A program made the position numbers and the translations under genes. A stretch of 52,102 nucleotides of DNA from Candidatus Falkowbacteria bacterium CG1_02_37_21 (lineage in GTDB: Bacteria > Patescibacteriota > Patescibacteriia > Patescibacteriales > UBA12465), in NCBI GenBank assembly GCA_001871165.1, contig MNUT01000002.1:1-52102 (forward strand), read 5' to 3'. The notes beneath the pieces are model-generated. The model was not told where the DNA came from, made no database searches, and saw nothing but the letters and a program-made list of their open reading frames with translations. Each line of letters opens with the position of its first letter. Position 1 is the first letter of the stretch. Below, piece after piece: positions 5,963-45,753 of this stretch.

Positions 5963-7222
5963 TTATTTATCTTTCTTGGTAGCCTTCTCCGACTTATCAA
6001 CCTTGGTCTTCTTCTCAACCTTTACTTTCTCCTTATCTTCTTTATCAGACTCATCACTCTTTGTATTTTTTTCTTTAGAAGATTTAGCGGACTTAGAAAC
6101 TTTAGCTCCGTCTGAAGCTAACTTCAAACCCAAACGATGTTCACTCGGAGAAATGCTAACTACTTCAAAATTCTTAATTTCACCAGACTGATATAATTCA
6201 CTCAACTTATCTTTAGCACCCAAATTTAATTGACTAACATGCGCCAAACCATGAATTTCTTCATCCAGCTTAACAAAAAGTCCAAAAGGATTAATCTTTA
6301 AAATTTCTCCGGAAACAACCTGTCCAATCTGATATTTGGCACTCGCCTCTAACCAAGGATCCTTTAATAATCTCTTAGCACTCAAGAAAACTTTGGCGCC
6401 ATCAATGGAAATAATCTCTACAGAAATATCATCACCAACCTGATACATATCATTAGGAGAATCAATTCTCTGCCAAGCTAATTCCGAAATATGAATTAGA
6501 CCTTCAATATTTTCACCGAAGGAAACAAAAACTCCAAAATTGGTAATCGCCGTAATCTTGCCATCAACCGGCATACCGACGCGATATTTATCCAAAGCTG
6601 GTCGTTGTTTTTTATTCCAAACATCTTTTTCGCTGAAAATAATTTTATTTTCTTCTTCGTTCAGAGTAATAACAGCCACTTCAAATTCTTGACCAACAAA
6701 AGATTTTAATTTTTCTAAAATTCTACTCTTATCACCACCGGCAATACGGGGATAATTATCTGGCGCTAATTGTGAAACCGGCAAGAAACCGTCAATTTGT
6801 CCGTAACGGCTCAAAAGTCCACCCTTATTAGCATCAACAATCTTAACCTTAATAGTAGTTTTATCTTTAAGCGCTGCATGTAGTTTTTCCCAAGCTTTTT
6901 CCTGACCAACCAAACGAAAAGACAATTCTAATTCACCATTTTCATTTTCCGCATCAATAACTGCTGCCTCAATTTCATCACCTGACTTTAAATTGGCAAA
7001 TTCTTCTACTTCATTATAAAGTTCCGGGCCACGAATAATACCCATTAAAACACCATTGATATCCATCTTCACTTCTGACTTAGAAGCGGTCACAATTACA
7101 CCCTTAACAATCTCTCCGACCTGAGGGATTTTAATATCATCTTTGGCTAATAATTTTTCAAACTCATCGCTAGCAGCGACATCGTTTGTTTTGTTTTCTT
7201 CCTCTTTATTATTGTTTCCCAT
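5963..7222 (-). CDS. rpsA: 30S ribosomal protein S1-like, multiple S1 domains
   Basis: Repeats of VDGKITAITNFGVFVSFGENIEGLIHISEL type; Lys/Glu-rich C-terminal tail. Confidence 0.85.
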   Translation of the reverse strand: MGNNNKEEENKTNDVAASDEFEKLLAKDDIKIPQVGEIVKGVIVTASKSEVKMDINGVLMGIIRGPELYNEVEEFANLKSGDEIEAAVIDAENENGELELSFRLVGQEKAWEKLHAALKDKTTIKVKIVDANKGGLLSRYGQIDGFLPVSQLAPDNYPRIAGGDKSRILEKLKSFVGQEFEVAVITLNEEENKIIFSEKDVWNKKQRPALDKYRVGMPVDGKITAITNFGVFVSFGENIEGLIHISELAWQRIDSPNDMYQVGDDISVEIISIDGAKVFLSAKRLLKDPWLEASAKYQIGQVVSGEILKINPFGLFVKLDEEIHGLAHVSQLNLGAKDKLSELYQSGEIKNFEVVSISPSEHRLGLKLASDGAKVSKSAKSSKEKNTKSDESDKEDKEKVKVEKKTKVDKSEKATKKDK

Positions 7223-13498: not shown

Positions 13499-13550
13499 TT
13501 GTAAACACTGGGAGTTATAAATTTATAAATACCCTATACGGAGCGGGTAA

Positions 13551-13704
13551 CGGGAATTTCGCCCTCGCCGGCCGCCGGAATTGCGGCCGGCTCACTTGTC
13601 CTGGGTCAGCGCTAAGCATCCCCCGGATGCTTAGCGACGCTCGCCCGCTCGTTCCGGCTTCCGCCGTTCCCTCGCGTCTCGCTTCTGACCTGTTCGATTC
13701 CCGT
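13551..13704 (-). ncRNA. candidate structured RNA inside element A
   Basis: Stems covary with element B; GGAA tetraloop on minus strand; GC-rich in an AT-rich genome. Confidence 0.55.
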
Positions 13705-13709
13705 AAACT

Positions 13710-13756
13710 AACACAGCAAAAATAAAAACACAGGATAAAATCCTGTGTTTTTATTT
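13710..13756. terminator. 17-bp perfect palindrome, probable bidirectional terminator
   Basis: AAATAAAAACACAGGAT-AAA-ATCCTGTGTTTTTATTT. Confidence 0.7.
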
Positions 13757-13976
13757 GGAGCGGGTAACGGGAATCGAAAGGATAGGAACTATTTTTATAA
13801 TTTATTAAATAGTAGATAAATTTCTTTAATGTTAGAAATTTTTTCACATTTTCTAAGTTATCAGTTTTTATCTGAAATAATGGCTATTTACCACCTTTAC
13901 GTCACAATAGCGTCACACTTTATTTGTGAGGCGACAATATAGGAAGGGTGGTAGTAGTCATTCCTAAACTCATAGT

Positions 13977-14894
13977 TTAAATAATATAATTTAATATTCC
14001 CTTTTCAATCATTTCTAAACTAAAAATATAATCATTATGATTAAAGGCCTCTCTTAACGGCCTCGACGTTGATTTCCATCCGTTACCATCAGTAATCCAA
14101 ACAAATTTATATTGGCCATTTAAAACATTAAATAAATCCCTGTATTCACCGGCCGTTGATTTTAACTTTGAACCGCCACCACCATAAAAATTTGTTTCAA
14201 AAATTACTATATCTTTACCGGTGTTTATAACATAATCATAACGTCTAGAAGATTTATCAACCGGCACATCAAAACCCCATTCACTTTTTATTTTTTCCGA
14301 AGTTGCTTCTTTCAAATATTTAAAACCTTTAGTTTTACAAATATCGGCTATAAAAAAGCCGACAATATCTTCCATGGAATGGCCACCTCTATTTTTACGG
14401 CCGTTGCTATCAAGACCGGCCTCTACGCCAATCATATAATCAACCAGATTTTTAATTTTTTGGGAAATGATTAAATCTTTAAGGCCAGTTTCTTTTACAA
14501 ATAATAAATACTTATCAATATCTTTATCGGTTACCGCCTCTTTAGAAAAATCATAATCCTCATAAACTAGCTTTTTCTTTTTATAATCAACTAGAATTTT
14601 AAATTGATTTGTATTACCACCATCACGAACGACTAAAGCCGGAATAACTTTGATAATTTCTGGATTTTGTTTAACTAAAAACTTAAATTCTTTATCAAAA
14701 TCATCTTTGCCAATTAAATAATTAAGATTATTTAAAGCAATTTCTATTTTTCTGGTGTTTGTAAAAACTTTTTCCCAATTTACGAAATAAGACCAAAGCA
14801 TATTGCTTGGCTTGAGATTATTTAAAAAATAATCGAATACCTCGTCCTCGTTTTTACATCCCAAAACTTCATTATAAAATTTAAGAAATTTCAT
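13977..14894 (-). CDS. DpnII/MboI-like type II restriction endonuclease (GATC predicted)
   Basis: KNRGGHSMEDIVGFFIADIC; YDYVINTGKDIVIFETNFYGGGGSKLKSTAGEY; adjacent to MTase. Confidence 0.88.
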   Translation of the reverse strand: MKFLKFYNEVLGCKNEDEVFDYFLNNLKPSNMLWSYFVNWEKVFTNTRKIEIALNNLNYLIGKDDFDKEFKFLVKQNPEIIKVIPALVVRDGGNTNQFKILVDYKKKKLVYEDYDFSKEAVTDKDIDKYLLFVKETGLKDLIISQKIKNLVDYMIGVEAGLDSNGRKNRGGHSMEDIVGFFIADICKTKGFKYLKEATSEKIKSEWGFDVPVDKSSRRYDYVINTGKDIVIFETNFYGGGGSKLKSTAGEYRDLFNVLNGQYKFVWITDGNGWKSTSRPLREAFNHNDYIFSLEMIEKGILNYII

Positions 14895-14898
14895 AAAT

Positions 14899-15759
14899 TT
14901 ACTTAATTAAATCCTTATATCTCTTAACTGACAATTCTAAATAATTTTTTTCTAAATCAATACCAATAAATTTTCTATCGTTAAGAGCGCAGGCTAAACC
15001 AGTCGTTGAAGAACCCGTAAATGGGTCGATGACTAAATCACCTTTGTTGGTACTAGCCATAACAATACGAACCAATAGATCTATTGGCTTTTGTGTCGGG
15101 TGCTTACCAAACTTCTTTTCGGTAGGTTTCGGCGTCCCCATAGACCAAACACTGCGCATTTGCAGATTTGGCTTTTTTAAAAAGTCTTCTGGCCAATTAC
15201 CATTTTTCATTAAGTCATAATTAAACTTATGTTTAGTGGTTATTGGTTTTCCGGTTTTAGGATGGACTAATTCTTTTCTCGCCCAGATCAAAGTTTCATG
15301 ACTGGCCGTAAAAAAGCGACAGCTTAAATTTGGTGAAGCATTGGGTTTAAACCAGGCAATATCGTTTAAGATGTGAAACTTGCTAACTTGGAGAGCGAAA
15401 CCGCATTGATAGATAGAGTGATAGGTGCCGGAAATCCAAATTGTGCCTCCTGGCTTTAATACTCTATGGCAAGCCTTAATCCAGGCTAATTGAAACTCAA
15501 AGTCTTTCTTTAGACCATTACTGACGTCCCATTCGCCTTTATTAACGCTAACCATCCGCCCAGCGTGAACGGAAAAACCACCATTAGATAATAAATAAGG
15601 TGGATCAGCGAATATCATATCAACCGAGTTCTCTGGCAAAGTAGCTAAAAATTCCAAGCTATTGGCCTGGTACAATTTAAAGTCTTTATCTTTAAAAAAT
15701 GGATCTAACATTTTTTTGCTTTTTTTCTTAGTTTTTATAGCCTTTTTTGAGGTAGTCAT
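14899..15759 (-). CDS. site-specific DNA-methyltransferase (adenine), DpnA-like; start may be internal at ~15711
   Basis: MIFADPPYLLSNGG (DPPY), VIDPFTGSSTTGLACALNDRKFIGIDLE. Confidence 0.92.
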   Translation of the reverse strand: MTTSKKAIKTKKKSKKMLDPFFKDKDFKLYQANSLEFLATLPENSVDMIFADPPYLLSNGGFSVHAGRMVSVNKGEWDVSNGLKKDFEFQLAWIKACHRVLKPGGTIWISGTYHSIYQCGFALQVSKFHILNDIAWFKPNASPNLSCRFFTASHETLIWARKELVHPKTGKPITTKHKFNYDLMKNGNWPEDFLKKPNLQMRSVWSMGTPKPTEKKFGKHPTQKPIDLLVRIVMASTNKGDLVIDPFTGSSTTGLACALNDRKFIGIDLEKNYLELSVKRYKDLIK

Positions 15760-15894
15760 ATTATAGCAAATTGGATATGAAGAAAAGATAAAGTCCTATT
15801 CTCTGGCCTAATTTTACGATTTTTTTAGCCAAAAGTCAAAATAATAAAGGGGGCTATTAAACCCCCTTTAGTACCGAACTGTCAAAAACCAACC

Positions 15895-16200
15895 CTATTT
15901 AGTTATGGGCAAATTTAGGGGGCATTGATTTAGTGAAAGTAAGTTATTATTCCAGTCACCATCACTATACGTTCTAAGAAATGGATATCTTCCATCGTTT
16001 GGACGCACAACGCCGACATCAGACCTTTTATTATTTATTGGGTCTAATACATAAAAAGTGTTAGTTTTTTCGTCAATGCTTTTTATTACGGCTTCACGAG
16101 TCCACATCCAATTATTACTGGGATTCCCCACGTGAGTAATATGTTCGTGTGGACTGTTTCTATCAGGTTTTCTAATACAAGTAATTTGGCAATCTGCCAT
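15895..16200 (-). CDS. DUF3892-like protein
   Basis: HITHVGNPSNNWMWTREAVIKSI...FYVLDP...YPFLRTYSDGDWNNNLLSL. Confidence 0.7.
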   Translation of the reverse strand: MADCQITCIRKPDRNSPHEHITHVGNPSNNWMWTREAVIKSIDEKTNTFYVLDPINNKRSDVGVVRPNDGRYPFLRTYSDGDWNNNLLSLNQCPLNLPITK

Positions 16201-16225
16201 ATATTTTTAAATTAATTTATTAAAT

Positions 16226-16317
16226 TTGCTAAGATCTGAAAAACCTGTTATACTTTTTTTGCAATGAAGTAAATTAGGAAAAACACGTCATCTTAACTGG
16301 TGCTACGTGTTTTTTTG
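16226..16317 (+). ncRNA. candidate small RNA 1 (promoter TTGCTA-N17-TATACT; ends in hairpin + T7)
   Basis: AACACGT...ACGTGTTTTTTT. Confidence 0.35.
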
Positions 16318-16347
16318 ATCATAGAATTTTAGTATCATATTGATATG

Positions 16348-16481
16348 TTGACTTAATTAATTAAAACTATTAATATTGAATTAACAAAAAGCCATATAAA
16401 AAATTAGGATTTTCCTGATTTCTTGGCTTTCTGGCGAAAAGTAGACCTTATTGCTTTCCACGGCGCAAGGTCTATTTTTTT
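16348..16481 (+). ncRNA. candidate small RNA 2 (promoter TTGACT-N17-TAATAT; two hairpins + T7)
   Basis: AAGCC...GGCTT hairpin, then AGACCTT...AAGGTCT-ATTTTTTT. Confidence 0.45.
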
Positions 16482-16857
16482 ATTTAGTTACCTCTTTTAG
16501 ATCAATAACGTACATTTTTTCTCCATTATTATCAATTTCTTTAGGTGTATACCGTCCTACGTAATTCAAAAAATCAAAATTGTATTTTCCCCAAAATGAG
16601 TTAGACTTAAAATAACCACCCACACCCGAATTTCTTAGTTTTGCAGTTGCTGGTTCTGACGTTTTAAAAAATTTAAAACCAATCGCCAAATGTTCTCTAT
16701 CAAAAAATATCTTAAGAAAATGATAATCCGATAGATTATATTTATTCATAAACCCCGAACTAAATCCGAAGCCACCGTTTTGCCCAATACTAATTCGTGG
16801 GGCAAACTTGCCCTTATAATCAGTAAATTCATCAAAATTGTAATTATTTTCTTCCAT
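16480..16857 (-). CDS. hypothetical protein
   Basis: 125-aa ORF, plausible composition. Confidence 0.6.
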   Translation of the reverse strand: MEENNYNFDEFTDYKGKFAPRISIGQNGGFGFSSGFMNKYNLSDYHFLKIFFDREHLAIGFKFFKTSEPATAKLRNSGVGGYFKSNSFWGKYNFDFLNYVGRYTPKEIDNNGEKMYVIDLKEVTK

Positions 16858-17138
16858 ATAGTTTGACTTAATAATATAAATAATTGAATTATAGACATCC
16901 AGTAAGGTACTGAGATAAGTTTAGCAAATTGAAATTGTTTTGTCAAGATAGTAATAGTAAATGGTTAAGTAAAATGAACTGTCGCTAACATTAAACAAAA
17001 ATAAGCATTAATTTAAATAATAGTTGATAACTTGTTAATAACTAAATTGAACAGATAAGAATATTATAATACAATAAAGTAAACAACTAGCTATTATTAA
17101 TGTTGAGATTTTGATAACTAAAGTGATAAAATGCTAAC

Positions 17139-18197
17139 ATGACTGAAAAAGCCAAACAACTCAAAAAGAACCTGGATGTCATAATTGATGAATTTACTGA
17201 CGAATACTATAAGGTTTTATTTTCCCCAAAAAAGATGAAAGTAGGAAATAAGCTATCTATATCCTATGAGCTTCCTCGGCTTTTTGTAATTATTAAAAAA
17301 TACATAAGAGAAATTGAATCTAGCAGAATTTTGGACGGCTTTATGAAAGTCCTAAGACAAGAAGTAAAAGCAAATGATCATGACGGCTCACTATTCGGTG
17401 AAAATTTAAATAAAATAAAAAATAACAAAACAAAATCTTATAACTGGGCTTACTATTCTCTTTTTAAAGCAATGCTAGGAGAAGCAAGTGTTCTTGCGTC
17501 ATCTATGCAAAAAATATTAAAAACGGCTGATGTTAATTCTGCCAAGAAAATGCTAGAAAATACGCAAAAACAAATAGAAGAAATAAAGAACATGGAAGAA
17601 GAAATAATAAAACTGAACCTAGATACTATATTAAGGCCAAAAATATATAAAAAATTTCTTAAAGATTTTCATAAAAGCATTATTTCCTGGGTGAATGCCT
17701 ATATTATGACTTCTGAATTTATAGATGATGAAGAAACAATAACCAAAGAACCTTTAACTGATAAATGGGAAGATGTGGGAATAATATTTAATGATGATAT
17801 AAATATAAAATTAGTAATAGACAACAAAGAGGAAAATTCTGATTACGAAAAATTAGGATTTGCTGACACTAGACGTAATTTATTTAAAAAAGCTGTATAT
17901 GTTAAAAGTTGGAATATTCTAATGCTATTTTCTATTAGAAATGGAGTAATAAAAATGAGTGATTTCGCGGGAAACAAAAACAAAAAAGAACTATTTAAAA
18001 AAGACCGGCAAGACTTATCAAAAAGGCTTAAGCGTTATTTCGGGCTAGCAGACGATCCAATAGTCTATGAACCGGATGGCGAAAGATATCGAATCAGAAT
18101 AAAATTAACCCCATCGCCAGATTTTAGAGATTCCTACCTTGATCAAAAAAAGAAGATATCTGAATATAACAAAAAGGATTTTCTAGGAGATTACTAA
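17139..18197 (+). CDS. hypothetical element-encoded protein (possible C-terminal winged-helix-like region)
   Basis: 352-aa ORF; no family recognised. Confidence 0.7.
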   Translation: MTEKAKQLKKNLDVIIDEFTDEYYKVLFSPKKMKVGNKLSISYELPRLFVIIKKYIREIESSRILDGFMKVLRQEVKANDHDGSLFGENLNKIKNNKTKSYNWAYYSLFKAMLGEASVLASSMQKILKTADVNSAKKMLENTQKQIEEIKNMEEEIIKLNLDTILRPKIYKKFLKDFHKSIISWVNAYIMTSEFIDDEETITKEPLTDKWEDVGIIFNDDINIKLVIDNKEENSDYEKLGFADTRRNLFKKAVYVKSWNILMLFSIRNGVIKMSDFAGNKNKKELFKKDRQDLSKRLKRYFGLADDPIVYEPDGERYRIRIKLTPSPDFRDSYLDQKKKISEYNKKDFLGDY

Positions 18198-18229
18198 AGA
18201 AATTTCGTCGCTATTTCCCTGGCAATTTA

Positions 18230-18262
18230 ATCCTCTAACTTACCTAAAGTTAGGGGATTTTT
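18230..18262 (+). terminator. intrinsic terminator
   Basis: CCTCTAACTT-acct-AAAGTTAGGGG-ATTTTTTT. Confidence 0.65.
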
Positions 18263-18404
18263 TTATTGCCTAAGAAATTTCGTCCATATAGGTTAGGAGA
18301 CAATCAAAAAGGTCGAGCTCCTCACTAATTCTTAATTCTACTCATATGCTTTTTCGTCAAAAATTATTCCCAATAAACAAACGGTCTAGCGACTACTTAA
18401 TTCT

Positions 18405-18481
18405 TTGCCCGCCTTTCTGTTTTTTTCTTTTTCGGCGGCTACCCCGTGGGGGAGCCGAAAAAGAAAAACAGAGGCGGCAAG
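18405..18481. repeat. long imperfect inverted repeat upstream of rep, candidate replication origin
   Basis: GCCCGCCTTTCTGTTTTTTTCTTTTTCGGCGGCTACCCC / GGGGGAGCCGAAAAAGAAAAACAGAGGCGGCAAG. Confidence 0.65.
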
Positions 18482-18540
18482 ATATGCAACGCTTCATACC
18501 TGCTTATTAACTTGATTATATGCACACTTAAGAACACATC

Positions 18541-18760
18541 TATGTTTTACACTCCAAAACAAATATTCAAAGACCATGATTATCATTCCTGGCTTAAGGA
18601 ACGAATCCAAAATCTAGAGACGGCTATTAGCGAAAATATGCCCTGTGATAGCACCGATGACATGGAACTTTTGAAAAGAAAATTAGCCTCATACCGACAA
18701 GTCGAGGCTGATTTAGCCAAACAATATGGAATACAAAACGAAATGGATAGTAACCGGTGA
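18541..18760 (+). CDS. small hypothetical protein (start likely MFYTPKQ, not the GTG at 18446)
   Basis: Overlaps rep start; the upstream part of the ORF lies in the inverted repeat. Confidence 0.5.
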
Positions 18761-19418
18761 CCAGGTTGAAGTTTATAAAAATTCAGTCGGGATTAGGATT
18801 GGCAAACGCAAACATAAAAAGAAAAAGACGATTAAAAAAATAGTTAAAACTATCTCTAAAAAATTAAACGAATTTTCCGTTTACCGCACACGCCGAGCCA
18901 TTAAATGGCGCATTAATTCTAATCCCGATATGAATAAATTTTTAACCCTAACTTTTGCCGAAAATCTGACGGATCTCAAAAGTTGTAATGAAAAATTTAA
19001 AGCCTTTATTAGAAAATTAAAAACGATTAAAGAGAATTTGAAATATTTAGTCGTCCCGGAATTTCAGAAACGTGGTGCCGTTCATTATCACGCCTTGCTC
19101 AATCTTGACTACATCGACCAAAAACAATTAGCGGATTTATGGGGTCATGGATTTATTAAGATTAAAAATATTAAAGACGGAATTAATATGGGTTTATATG
19201 TTTCAAAATATATCGGCAAGGATTTAGAGGATGAACGATACTTCAATAACAAAAAATACTTCTGTTCTCGCAACTTAGACAAACCTATGATTTTTTATTC
19301 ACGAGATGAAATTGATAATTTTTTACAGCTTAATTCTTTGACCCCGACTTACGAAAAAACGTTTCAAAGCTATTATGGCTTGATAAATTATCAACTTTTC
19401 AAATTAGACAAAAAATAA
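18726..19418 (+). CDS. HUH-superfamily replication initiator (rolling-circle Rep, phage-type)
   Basis: FLTLTF (motif 1), PEFQKRGAVHYHALLNL (HUH motif), YVSKYIGKD (YxxxY motif). Confidence 0.82.
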   Translation: MEYKTKWIVTGDQVEVYKNSVGIRIGKRKHKKKKTIKKIVKTISKKLNEFSVYRTRRAIKWRINSNPDMNKFLTLTFAENLTDLKSCNEKFKAFIRKLKTIKENLKYLVVPEFQKRGAVHYHALLNLDYIDQKQLADLWGHGFIKIKNIKDGINMGLYVSKYIGKDLEDERYFNNKKYFCSRNLDKPMIFYSRDEIDNFLQLNSLTPTYEKTFQSYYGLINYQLFKLDKK

Positions 19419-19492
19419 AATTGGTAATAGAGTAATACTGTGACTGGCGTAATCCCGTTTTACGTTCCTGTATTGCTCTTTAATAACTTAAT

Positions 19493-19690
19493 ATGTCAAT
19501 TGACCTAACTACAATTGAATTTCTAACTACTGAGCAATTAGCAGGTCTATTAAATATTTCTAAAACTTCTATATATCGTCTAATTGGAAATCGTTTAATT
19601 CCTTTCTACAAACTCGGCCACAATATACGCTTCAAAAAAGCTGATGTTTTGGATTACTTAGAAAAAAATTGTCTTAGGCCGATTTCATGA
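19493..19690 (+). CDS. excisionase-family HTH DNA-binding protein
   Basis: EFLTTEQLAGLLNISKTSIYRLIGNRLIPFYKLGHNIRFKKADVLDYLE. Confidence 0.88.
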   Translation: MSIDLTTIEFLTTEQLAGLLNISKTSIYRLIGNRLIPFYKLGHNIRFKKADVLDYLEKNCLRPIS

Positions 19691-19701
19691 TTATATGATT
19701 T

Positions 19702-20871
19702 ATGAGTATCTATAAACGAAAAAATAAATGGTGGGTAGACTTTAGCTTTCAAAATAAACGCTATCGTTTCTGTAGTCCGGAAAATTCCGCTAGTGGTGCT
19801 AGAGCTTATGAGGGATTATTAAGACAAGGCCTATTAAAAGGAGAAAATATTTCTACCAAAATAGAGCCCTGTCCAGTTTTTTCAGCTTTCGCCGAAAAAT
19901 GGTTTATCAATTATGTTAAATCAAATAATAAGTTCTCTGAGTACTGCAATAAACAAAGCGTTTATAAAGTCCACCTTGAACCATTTTTTGGTAAATTAAG
20001 TCTTGATCAAATTACAGCTTATAAGATAGAAGAATTTAAGGCATTAAAGACCCAGTCTACTCTTGCCCCTAAAACTATCAATAAGATGCTCTCAACCCTC
20101 AGGAAAGCCTTAAATACGGCAGAGGAGTGGGGTTTACTAGTTTCTGTGCCCAAAATTAAGCTTCTAAAAGTACCACCTCAAAAATTTGATTATCTTTTAC
20201 CAGAAGAAGAAGACTTTCTACTAGAAAACACCGAAGGCATATGGCACAATATGATTCTATTAGCTCTTAAGACCGGATTAAGATTTGGCGAGATAATTGC
20301 TTTAAACTGGGAAGACATTGATTTCTCAAATAAACTCCTAACCGTTCGCCATTCCATTGTTCGAGGAATAATGGGAAGTCCAAAAAGTAACAAGATTAGA
20401 TATATTCCAATGACTGATTCTTTATTGGAAATGCTTTGGAATAAATCAAAAAATGAAGATTATATTTTTACTCTAGGAAACAATAAACCAATGAAGCAAA
20501 TTTATTGTTTAAAAAATATGACTCGCATTTGTAAGAAATTAAATATACGCAAAATAGGTTGGCACGTTTTACGCCATACTTTTGCTTCACGCCTAGCAAA
20601 CAACGGAGTTTCTATGAAAGTTATTCAAGAACTTTTAGGCCACTCCGATATTACCACGACAATGCGCTATGCTCATTTGTCGCCGATCACTCTTCGAGAA
20701 TCTATACGCACTTTAGATAATCGAAAAGCCATTGAATTAGAGATATGTCACAAAAATGTCACAAATGTCACAATCACTAATTTAAAAGAGACGGATTTAG
20801 CTCCGGTTAAATCTCAAATTTTCCCCGAAGATAAACAAAAACAGACATCTCTGTCTGTTAATGTTTTGTGA
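19702..20871 (+). CDS. tyrosine-type recombinase/integrase
   Basis: TGLRFGEIIALNWEDID, WHVLRHTFASRLANNGVSMKVIQELLGHSDITTTMRYAH. Confidence 0.95.
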   Translation: MSIYKRKNKWWVDFSFQNKRYRFCSPENSASGARAYEGLLRQGLLKGENISTKIEPCPVFSAFAEKWFINYVKSNNKFSEYCNKQSVYKVHLEPFFGKLSLDQITAYKIEEFKALKTQSTLAPKTINKMLSTLRKALNTAEEWGLLVSVPKIKLLKVPPQKFDYLLPEEEDFLLENTEGIWHNMILLALKTGLRFGEIIALNWEDIDFSNKLLTVRHSIVRGIMGSPKSNKIRYIPMTDSLLEMLWNKSKNEDYIFTLGNNKPMKQIYCLKNMTRICKKLNIRKIGWHVLRHTFASRLANNGVSMKVIQELLGHSDITTTMRYAHLSPITLRESIRTLDNRKAIELEICHKNVTNVTITNLKETDLAPVKSQIFPEDKQKQTSLSVNVL

Positions 20872-20942
20872 GCGGGTAACGGGAATCGAACCCGTCTCTT
20901 GAACTTGGCAAGCTCACATAATAACCACTATACGATACCCGC
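20871..20942 (-). tRNA. tRNA-Gly (GCC)
   Basis: GCGGGTATCGTATAGTGGTTATTATGTGAGCTTGCCAAGTTCAAGAGACGGGTTCGATTCCCGTTACCCGCT. Confidence 0.95.
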
Positions 20943-45178: not shown

Positions 45179-45468
45179 AGTATAATGGACAGGAACGGGA
45201 AAGTCAACAATAATTAGCACTTATGGACGATTAAGAAACCCTAATAGAATACAAGGATAAATATCAGCTCAAATGGAGGAAATTTTTATGGACAAATTAG
45301 CCTATCCAAACCATCATTCCTTCACCGATCATCAGAGGCTTAATGCAGGCCGAGGACATGGTCTTTACCAAGAAATACAAAAATCCCAACAAATTAATTA
45401 AGCTTTGGATTAGAATTGAAGTCAATCAACCGAACTTGGTTATATTAGATACCGTTTGGGGTGCCTAT

Positions 45469-45623
45469 CGGGAATTAGCGCGCTCAACCGCCGCCAGAAT
45501 TGCGGCGGTCTCGCTTGTCCAGGGTTGGCGTCCGATATGCCACCCGGCATATCGTCCGACGCTCTCCTTTTCGCTATTTCTTCCGAAATAGCTCAAGACT
45601 CGCTGCCAACCTGTCCGATTCCC
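45469..45623 (-). ncRNA. candidate structured RNA inside element B
   Basis: Same ordered helices and loops as element A with compensatory stem changes. Confidence 0.55.
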
Positions 45624-45637
45624 CGCGACTACGTCGC

Positions 45638-45680
45638 TATAATAAAAATAATCCAGAAAATTCTGGATTATTTTTATTAT
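45638..45680. terminator. 20-bp perfect palindrome downstream of tRNA-His
   Basis: ATAATAAAAATAATCCAGAA-AA-TTCTGGATTATTTTTATTAT. Confidence 0.7.
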
Positions 45681-45681
45681 G

Positions 45682-45753
45682 GGTGCCTATCGGGAATCGG
45701 ACCCGAAATAACAGGACCACAACCTGCTGTGTTACCACTACACCATAGGCACC
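45682..45753 (-). tRNA. tRNA-His (GTG)
   Basis: G-1/C73 pair; anticodon loop TTGTGGT; T-arm CGGGTCCGATTCCCG. Confidence 0.93.

Follow-up and report, generated by a model that had tools for sequence, protein, structure and literature searches.

A small non-coding element at tRNA 3' ends in Patescibacteria whose guide sequence follows the local T-arm

We found that a ~220-bp unit in Candidatus Falkowbacteria DNA belongs to a family of about 146 tabulated copies in Patescibacteria, in which a short guide sequence follows the T-arm of the tRNA gene at which each copy sits. The unit, element A, lies in a stretch of 52,102 nt (the window, meaning here the whole stretch analysed). With somewhat more confidence than doubt, we read element A as belonging to a family of mobile elements that are small, non-coding, non-autonomous and guide-bearing, insert at tRNA 3' ends and have their guide refitted; we infer that RNA does the guiding. 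We are more tentative, and lean slightly towards doubt, on a broader proposal: that the family is a new class of mobile element, a structured RNA that enters tRNA genes at the T-loop, rewrites its own guide for each new tRNA and so may harmlessly colonise nearly every tRNA gene.

Element A is bounded by an 18-bp direct repeat (13540-13557 and 13757-13774, period 217), as originally predicted; with up to three mismatches allowed, the repeat has three matches in the window versus 0.02 expected. The predicted palindrome (arms at 13720-13736 and 13740-13756, 100% complementary) and inverted T-arm (GTTCGATTCCCGT, 13692-13704, plus strand) were also confirmed. The placement of A at a tRNA-Gly 3' end stands for the repeat, which is the tRNA-Gly end, but the tRNA gene itself is now 7.1 kb off. 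Between them lies an integrative island (Table 1) whose ends are the 21-bp sequence GAGCGGGTAACGGGAATCGAA, found at 13758-13778 and 20870-20890. Given these shared ends and an integrase gene that ends at the tRNA, the island entered the T-arm of tRNA-Gly and displaced A together with the old tRNA end. Hence, element A adjoined tRNA-Gly before the island arrived.

Table 1. Coordinates of elements A and B, their tRNA genes and the island in the window
Feature	Position	Strand	Basis
Element A distal direct copy, tRNA-Gly 3' end from position 58	13540-13557	-	exact 18-bp repeat
Element A structured body, helices P2-P5	13558-13691	-	covariance model R1 and covariation
Element A guide GGGAATCGAAC (minus strand), complementary to tRNA-Gly positions 53-63	13692-13702	-	sequence, family profile
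Element A link, guide to terminator	13703-13719	-	sequence
Element A perfect palindrome, terminator-like in both directions	13720-13756	.	sequence
Proximal tRNA-Gly 3'-end copy, now far end of the island (attR)	13757-13778	-	21-bp match to 20870-20890
Integrative island separating A from tRNA-Gly, ~7.1 kb	13779-20869	.	21-bp ends, encoded proteins
Island DpnII-type restriction endonuclease	13977-14894	-	
Island N6/N4 DNA methylase	14899-15759	-	
Island G2P-type Rep	18726-19418	+	
Island tyrosine integrase, ends at tRNA-Gly	19702-20871	+	PF00589, E 6e-36
tRNA-Gly(GCC), tRNA to which element A belongs	20870-20942	-	ARAGORN
Element B distal direct copy, tRNA-His 3' end	45459-45475	-	repeat
Element B structured body	45476-45612	-	R1, 163.2 bits over 45470-45623 (B in training set)
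Element B guide GGGAATCGGAC, complementary to tRNA-His GTCCGATTCCC (inverted T-arm)	45613-45623	-	
Element B perfect palindrome, terminator-like	45639-45680	.	
tRNA-His(GTG), intact host tRNA of element B	45681-45752	-	ARAGORN

A second unit in the window, element B at tRNA-His, repeats A's order of parts, as had been claimed: a 17-bp repeat (45459-45475 and 45681-45697, period 222), a palindrome and an inverted T-arm. The two are related, since the covariance model R1, trained on a set that includes both, scores 149.5 bits for A (over 13551-13702) and 163.2 bits for B. Plain BLAST with element A recovers further copies in the same genome, on contigs C16 (at tRNA-Glu), C14 and C21 (E 2e-21 to 1e-14), and the covariance model finds 9 copies there. 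By the same model, copies occur in 27 of 39 genomes of the host family (up to 11 per genome), 44 of 111 in the order and 60 of 389 in the class, and they reach other classes of the phylum as well; the named matches that the model confirms belong mainly to Candidatus Falkowbacteria and to further Patescibacteria. Copies form tandem arrays, and close relatives differ in their presence or absence.

All units share one order of parts: the tRNA comes first, in most cases followed by a palindromic terminator; then come the 11-nt guide, a body of ~130 nt and, last, a direct repeat of the tRNA 3' end that begins at position 58. Of the ~146 copies, 86 sit 15-80 nt 3' of an intact tRNA and share its strand; the others are mostly array members, cut by contig ends or placed behind a degenerate tRNA end. 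Host tRNAs are of about 15 types (Gly, Glu, Gln, Ser, His, Trp, Val, Asp, Asn, Arg, Lys, Leu, Met, Pro and Tyr). Where a unit lies at a tRNA, its body mostly begins 21-72 nt past the tRNA, usually ~55 nt, behind the terminator. The terminator is dispensable, as it is missing in three units (L190, L193 and L197). Rfam searches at gathering and relaxed thresholds gave no match on the body (HEARO, GOLLD and ROOL included), and no description of the family was found in literature searches. A search of viral contigs with a strict pattern found no copy, which is weak evidence against viral carriage. The family is filed under no known family; it is undescribed and absent from Rfam. Two apparently truncated relics, each with a terminator, a guide and the start of a body, were seen 3' of tRNA-Gly (L161 in G012 and L175 in G028).

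The original prediction proposed aligning family members with their adjacent tRNAs, and in this alignment (70 units at intact tRNAs, then 86) the inverted T-arm does track the local tRNA. Guides of 70 units match their own T-arm at 11.06 of 12 positions versus 9.95 with shuffled tRNAs (best of 5000 shuffles, 10.30). Positions 53-57, which lie outside the duplicated segment, track by themselves (4.83 versus 4.60 shuffled, maximum 4.74; 70 units). Among the 86 units the fit is 11/11 in 56, 10/11 in 22 and 9/11 in 8. A fixed T-arm carried regardless of the host tRNA was not seen: guides vary with the local T-arm. In 66 of the 86 units no other T-arm fits as well as the local one, in 10 there is a tie and in 10 another T-arm fits better. 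The guide follows even rare loops (GTCCG answered by CGGAC, GTCCA by TGGAC) and unusual arms: the odd T-arm GTGCGATTCCC is answered by GGGAATCGCAC (L200), the shortened T-arm GTTCGATCCC by GGGATCGAAC (L193), and GTTCAATTCCC by GGGAATTGAAC (L190). For pairs of units with close bodies at different tRNA families, the own guide was favoured in 30 of 36 cases, with 2 against. Part of this tracking could stem from shared descent or selection instead of copying.

Element A is an insertion. In G011, a genome of the same genus, the element-free tRNA-Gly continues straight into the DNA that lies beyond A's distal copy in the window (83% identity over 400 bp). The distal copy therefore borders native downstream DNA, and what has been added is A with a second copy of the tRNA end. 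This detailed evidence comes from one uninterrupted site, at A's locus. The insertion leaves the host tRNA whole, since the tRNA end from position 58 onwards occurs both ahead of the element and behind it. A profile over units at tRNAs places the boundary sharply: identity of the distal copy to the tRNA is 93-98% at positions 58-62 and 86-100% over 58-74 but 0-9% at 54-57. Complementarity of the guide, by contrast, is 86-100% over positions 53-63 and 53% at 64, so the guide spans the 57|58 junction unbroken, covering five bases before it and six after it. Where the tRNA gene encodes CCA, the direct copy can extend to CCA (L188, L190 and L193). In L023 the distal copy begins at 64 and guide complementarity is stretched to 53-72; junction and guide have shifted jointly.

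Five helical regions are supported in the fold: P1, which in element A is formed by the first half of the guide and the distal copy, P2, P3 with a GGAA loop, P4 and P5. In an alignment of 84 distinct rows, which was itself fitted to the structure and so biases the counts in its favour, 91.7% of cells pair and double changes occur in 34 of 35 pairs; the unfitted first MAFFT alignment has double changes in 25 of 35. The covariation score is 0.607 versus 0.188 for shuffled and at most 0.10 for slid controls. G.U pairs outnumber A.C by 67:30 in helices 2-7 and 48:11 in P1, the excess being modest outside P1. This makes the tRNA-sense strand the likelier folding strand and disfavours an antisense RNA; MFE z-scores are similar on both strands. 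This strand preference suits RNA, folded single-stranded DNA being less likely. A sense RNA would have to arise by read-through, since a terminator and only ~14 nt precede the guide.

To see how bodies are distributed among tRNAs, we used a body tree built on 134 columns with the guide and ends left out, in which many forks are open. On this tree, tRNA identity changes 53 times (56.3 with shuffled labels) and T-arm class 41 times (44.3 shuffled), whereas host family changes 22 times versus 36.9. As tRNA labels are near random and host family is not, bodies stay within host lineages and hop almost freely among tRNAs. Moreover, the link between guide and terminator resembles a decayed complement of tRNA positions 64-72 (score 8.22 versus 7.17 ± 0.19, reached in 0 of 2000 shuffles), and inverted tRNA copies of nearly full length are present in L023, L138 and L142. 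The suggestion that the element is adapted to, or re-copied from, its local tRNA thus gains support from both guide tracking and body hopping. Between re-copying and a guide that chooses its target, re-copying is favoured, because T-arm class changes are near random and complementarity reaches positions 64-72, past the conserved guide.

There is no gene within the element, and an enzyme was sought nearby and across genomes. An all-against-all comparison of ORFs near units revealed no linked helper, just genes that ordinarily neighbour tRNAs and one Fic family; proteins resembling Fic occur repeatedly close to units in L021, L053, L081, L136 and L151. RVT_1 was not found in the unit-bearing genomes G001, G002, G008, G013, G016 and G023, nor Y1_Tnp (IS200/IS605) in G000, G001, G002, G006, G008, G014, G016, G023 and G030, and the IS110 recombinase domain (PF01548) is missing from 20 of 21 genomes searched. 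A resident reverse transcriptase, Y1 transposase or IS110 partner was rejected in each case by absence from complete unit-bearing genomes; G002 and G023 (single-contig) and G016 (100% complete) carry units and lack all three. The sole IS110-type domain among the 21 genomes is in the window's own genome (G000:C21, 19260-19688), on the same contig as a unit and ~8 kb from it. Separately, an RVT_1 reverse transcriptase ORF lies ~0.45 kb upstream of a unit in L136 (79-978). At least one PF00589 protein is present in all genomes checked except one. Most complete genomes have just one, as do G001, G002, G008, G016, G023 and G030 (open frame 318-345 aa), and this lone ~320-aa protein is probably the chromosomal Xer. 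For integron cassettes, which are defined by an IntI-type integrase and an attC core (RYYYAAC/GTTRRRY), the comparison covered this count of PF00589 proteins. The mover would be either a host or unrecognised enzyme, or one that visits and is then lost.

The near-ubiquity of PF00589 proteins, the shared target and the integrase island between tRNA-Gly and A also fit a reading that we think unlikely, namely that A is a minimal attP-like satellite moved in trans by T-arm-targeting integrases, its inverted T-arm being the integrase core site. However, the single PF00589 protein of the unit-bearing G002, G016 and G023 is probably Xer, and the island's repeat includes positions 54-74, whereas the element's direct copy has no identity at 54-57. 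A circle with the 3' end of one tRNA would break another, yet bodies switch tRNAs freely, and the covarying RNA-like fold would be left unexplained. A guide that spans the target junction and whose variants match T-arm classes could instead be programmable, picking its target tRNA like a bridge RNA without re-copying; tracking would then mark where guide variants could insert. We consider this distinctly improbable: T-arm class should cluster on the body tree but changes nearly as often as under shuffled labels, complementarity runs on into the unconserved link at 64-72, and the IS110 recombinase is missing from all but one of the genomes searched.

It is very unlikely, in our judgement, that an intron-kind ribozyme with a group I-like guide reverse-splices into the pre-tRNA at 57|58 and returns to DNA via reverse transcription. 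The sharp junction, the guide running unbroken over it (compare group I P1 and P10) and the joint shift in L023 speak for such a course. Yet no Rfam intron matches, no G precedes the 3' junction, the 5' side has no conserved U.G, and RVT_1 is missing from the six genomes named above; splicing would also be unnecessary, as the full tRNA end and a terminator precede the element. Last, the fixed place behind tRNAs and the conserved fold might be those of a host regulatory or tRNA-processing RNA that does not move, and theta ribozymes suggest trailer processing by RNAs at tRNA 3' ends (PMC10879173). The patchy distribution, which differs between close relatives, the tandem arrays, the random choice of tRNA along the body tree and the terminator that usually precedes the body all argue against it and make it highly improbable.

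Overall, we suggest a mobile element with a refitted guide, working as follows. The body would act as RNA read through from the tRNA gene; action as folded single-stranded DNA is less probable. The guide would pair with the T-arm and fix the position of the junction, and an enzyme supplied in trans would insert the element and duplicate the tRNA end. The guide may be refitted by copying of the adjacent T-arm through fold-back synthesis at insertion. Alternatively, the imperfect inverted repeat formed by T-arm, terminator palindrome and guide may be corrected by template switching during replication, in one direction owing to selection on the essential tRNA. Both routes are compatible with the data. 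Template-switch correction is known for quasi-palindromes and requires replication only. In G023, otherwise matching units at two tRNA-Glu genes (L074 and L075) have terminator loops that are reverse complements of each other (AGA/TCT), as if the hairpin had flipped. This inverted loop and the perfect terminator palindromes point in the same direction as template-switch correction.

Known systems share single traits with the family. Integrative elements at tRNA 3' ends (tyrosine integrase islands, satellites) likewise target tRNA genes and keep the tRNA whole via a repeated 3' end. However, the present family has no integrase, is ~220 bp long, uses many tRNA families and carries an inverted T-arm and a covarying fold; the target repeat of integrase elements is identical on both sides of the crossover, whereas here identity of the distal copy falls from 93-98% (58-62) to 0-9% (54-57). 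Like the IS110 bridge RNA, a structured non-coding RNA with a guide for the insertion site (PMC11208160), the family has a guide, but a single one of ~11 nt, continuous on one strand, with a long target duplication and refitting to the target. Group I introns, through their internal guide sequence (P1/P10), also pair with both sides of a junction; the family has no group I core, terminal G or covariance-model match and leaves the tRNA uninterrupted. Theta (HDV-like) ribozymes of gut phages (Caudoviricetes) are structured and non-coding at tRNA 3' ends too, with a cleavage site at most 5 nt from the tRNA (PMC10879173), whereas the body described here usually begins ~55 nt past the tRNA, with a terminator in between, and has a copy of the tRNA end as its border; HDV-like Rfam models gave no match on it. 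IS200/IS605 guide-DNA transposons and MITE/REP derivatives are similarly small, hairpin-rich and non-coding with guide pairing, but the Y1 transposase is missing from most unit-bearing genomes and the anatomy differs.

A protein-free element of ~200 bp that reaches ~15 tRNA types, leaves each intact and has its guide refitted would represent a new way of inserting safely. Such an element would also give reason to look in Patescibacteria, a vast and poorly understood group with tiny genomes, for an enzyme that carries out programmable recombination or copying. For annotators, many Patescibacterial tRNAs precede a conserved structured element that is missing from Rfam.

Several arrays at single tRNAs (L133, L135, L136, L137, L059, L063 and L141) have units alternating with 1-6 kb of ORFs. 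We considered whether the gene cassettes of L133, L135-L137, L059 and L063 are cargo of the element and think this less likely, as the cassettes have unlike ends and resemble independent insertions at one hotspot. Conserved right ends, for example GTTCTAACATC(A/G)TCTATTACC before a tRNA acceptor tail, recur among the ORF segments, which resemble a second cassette-like family at that hotspot. In L059, at tRNA-Gln, two identical units (654-804 and 6655-6805) lie 6001 bp apart within a 229-bp exact repeat and flank ABC-transporter and CcdA-like genes.
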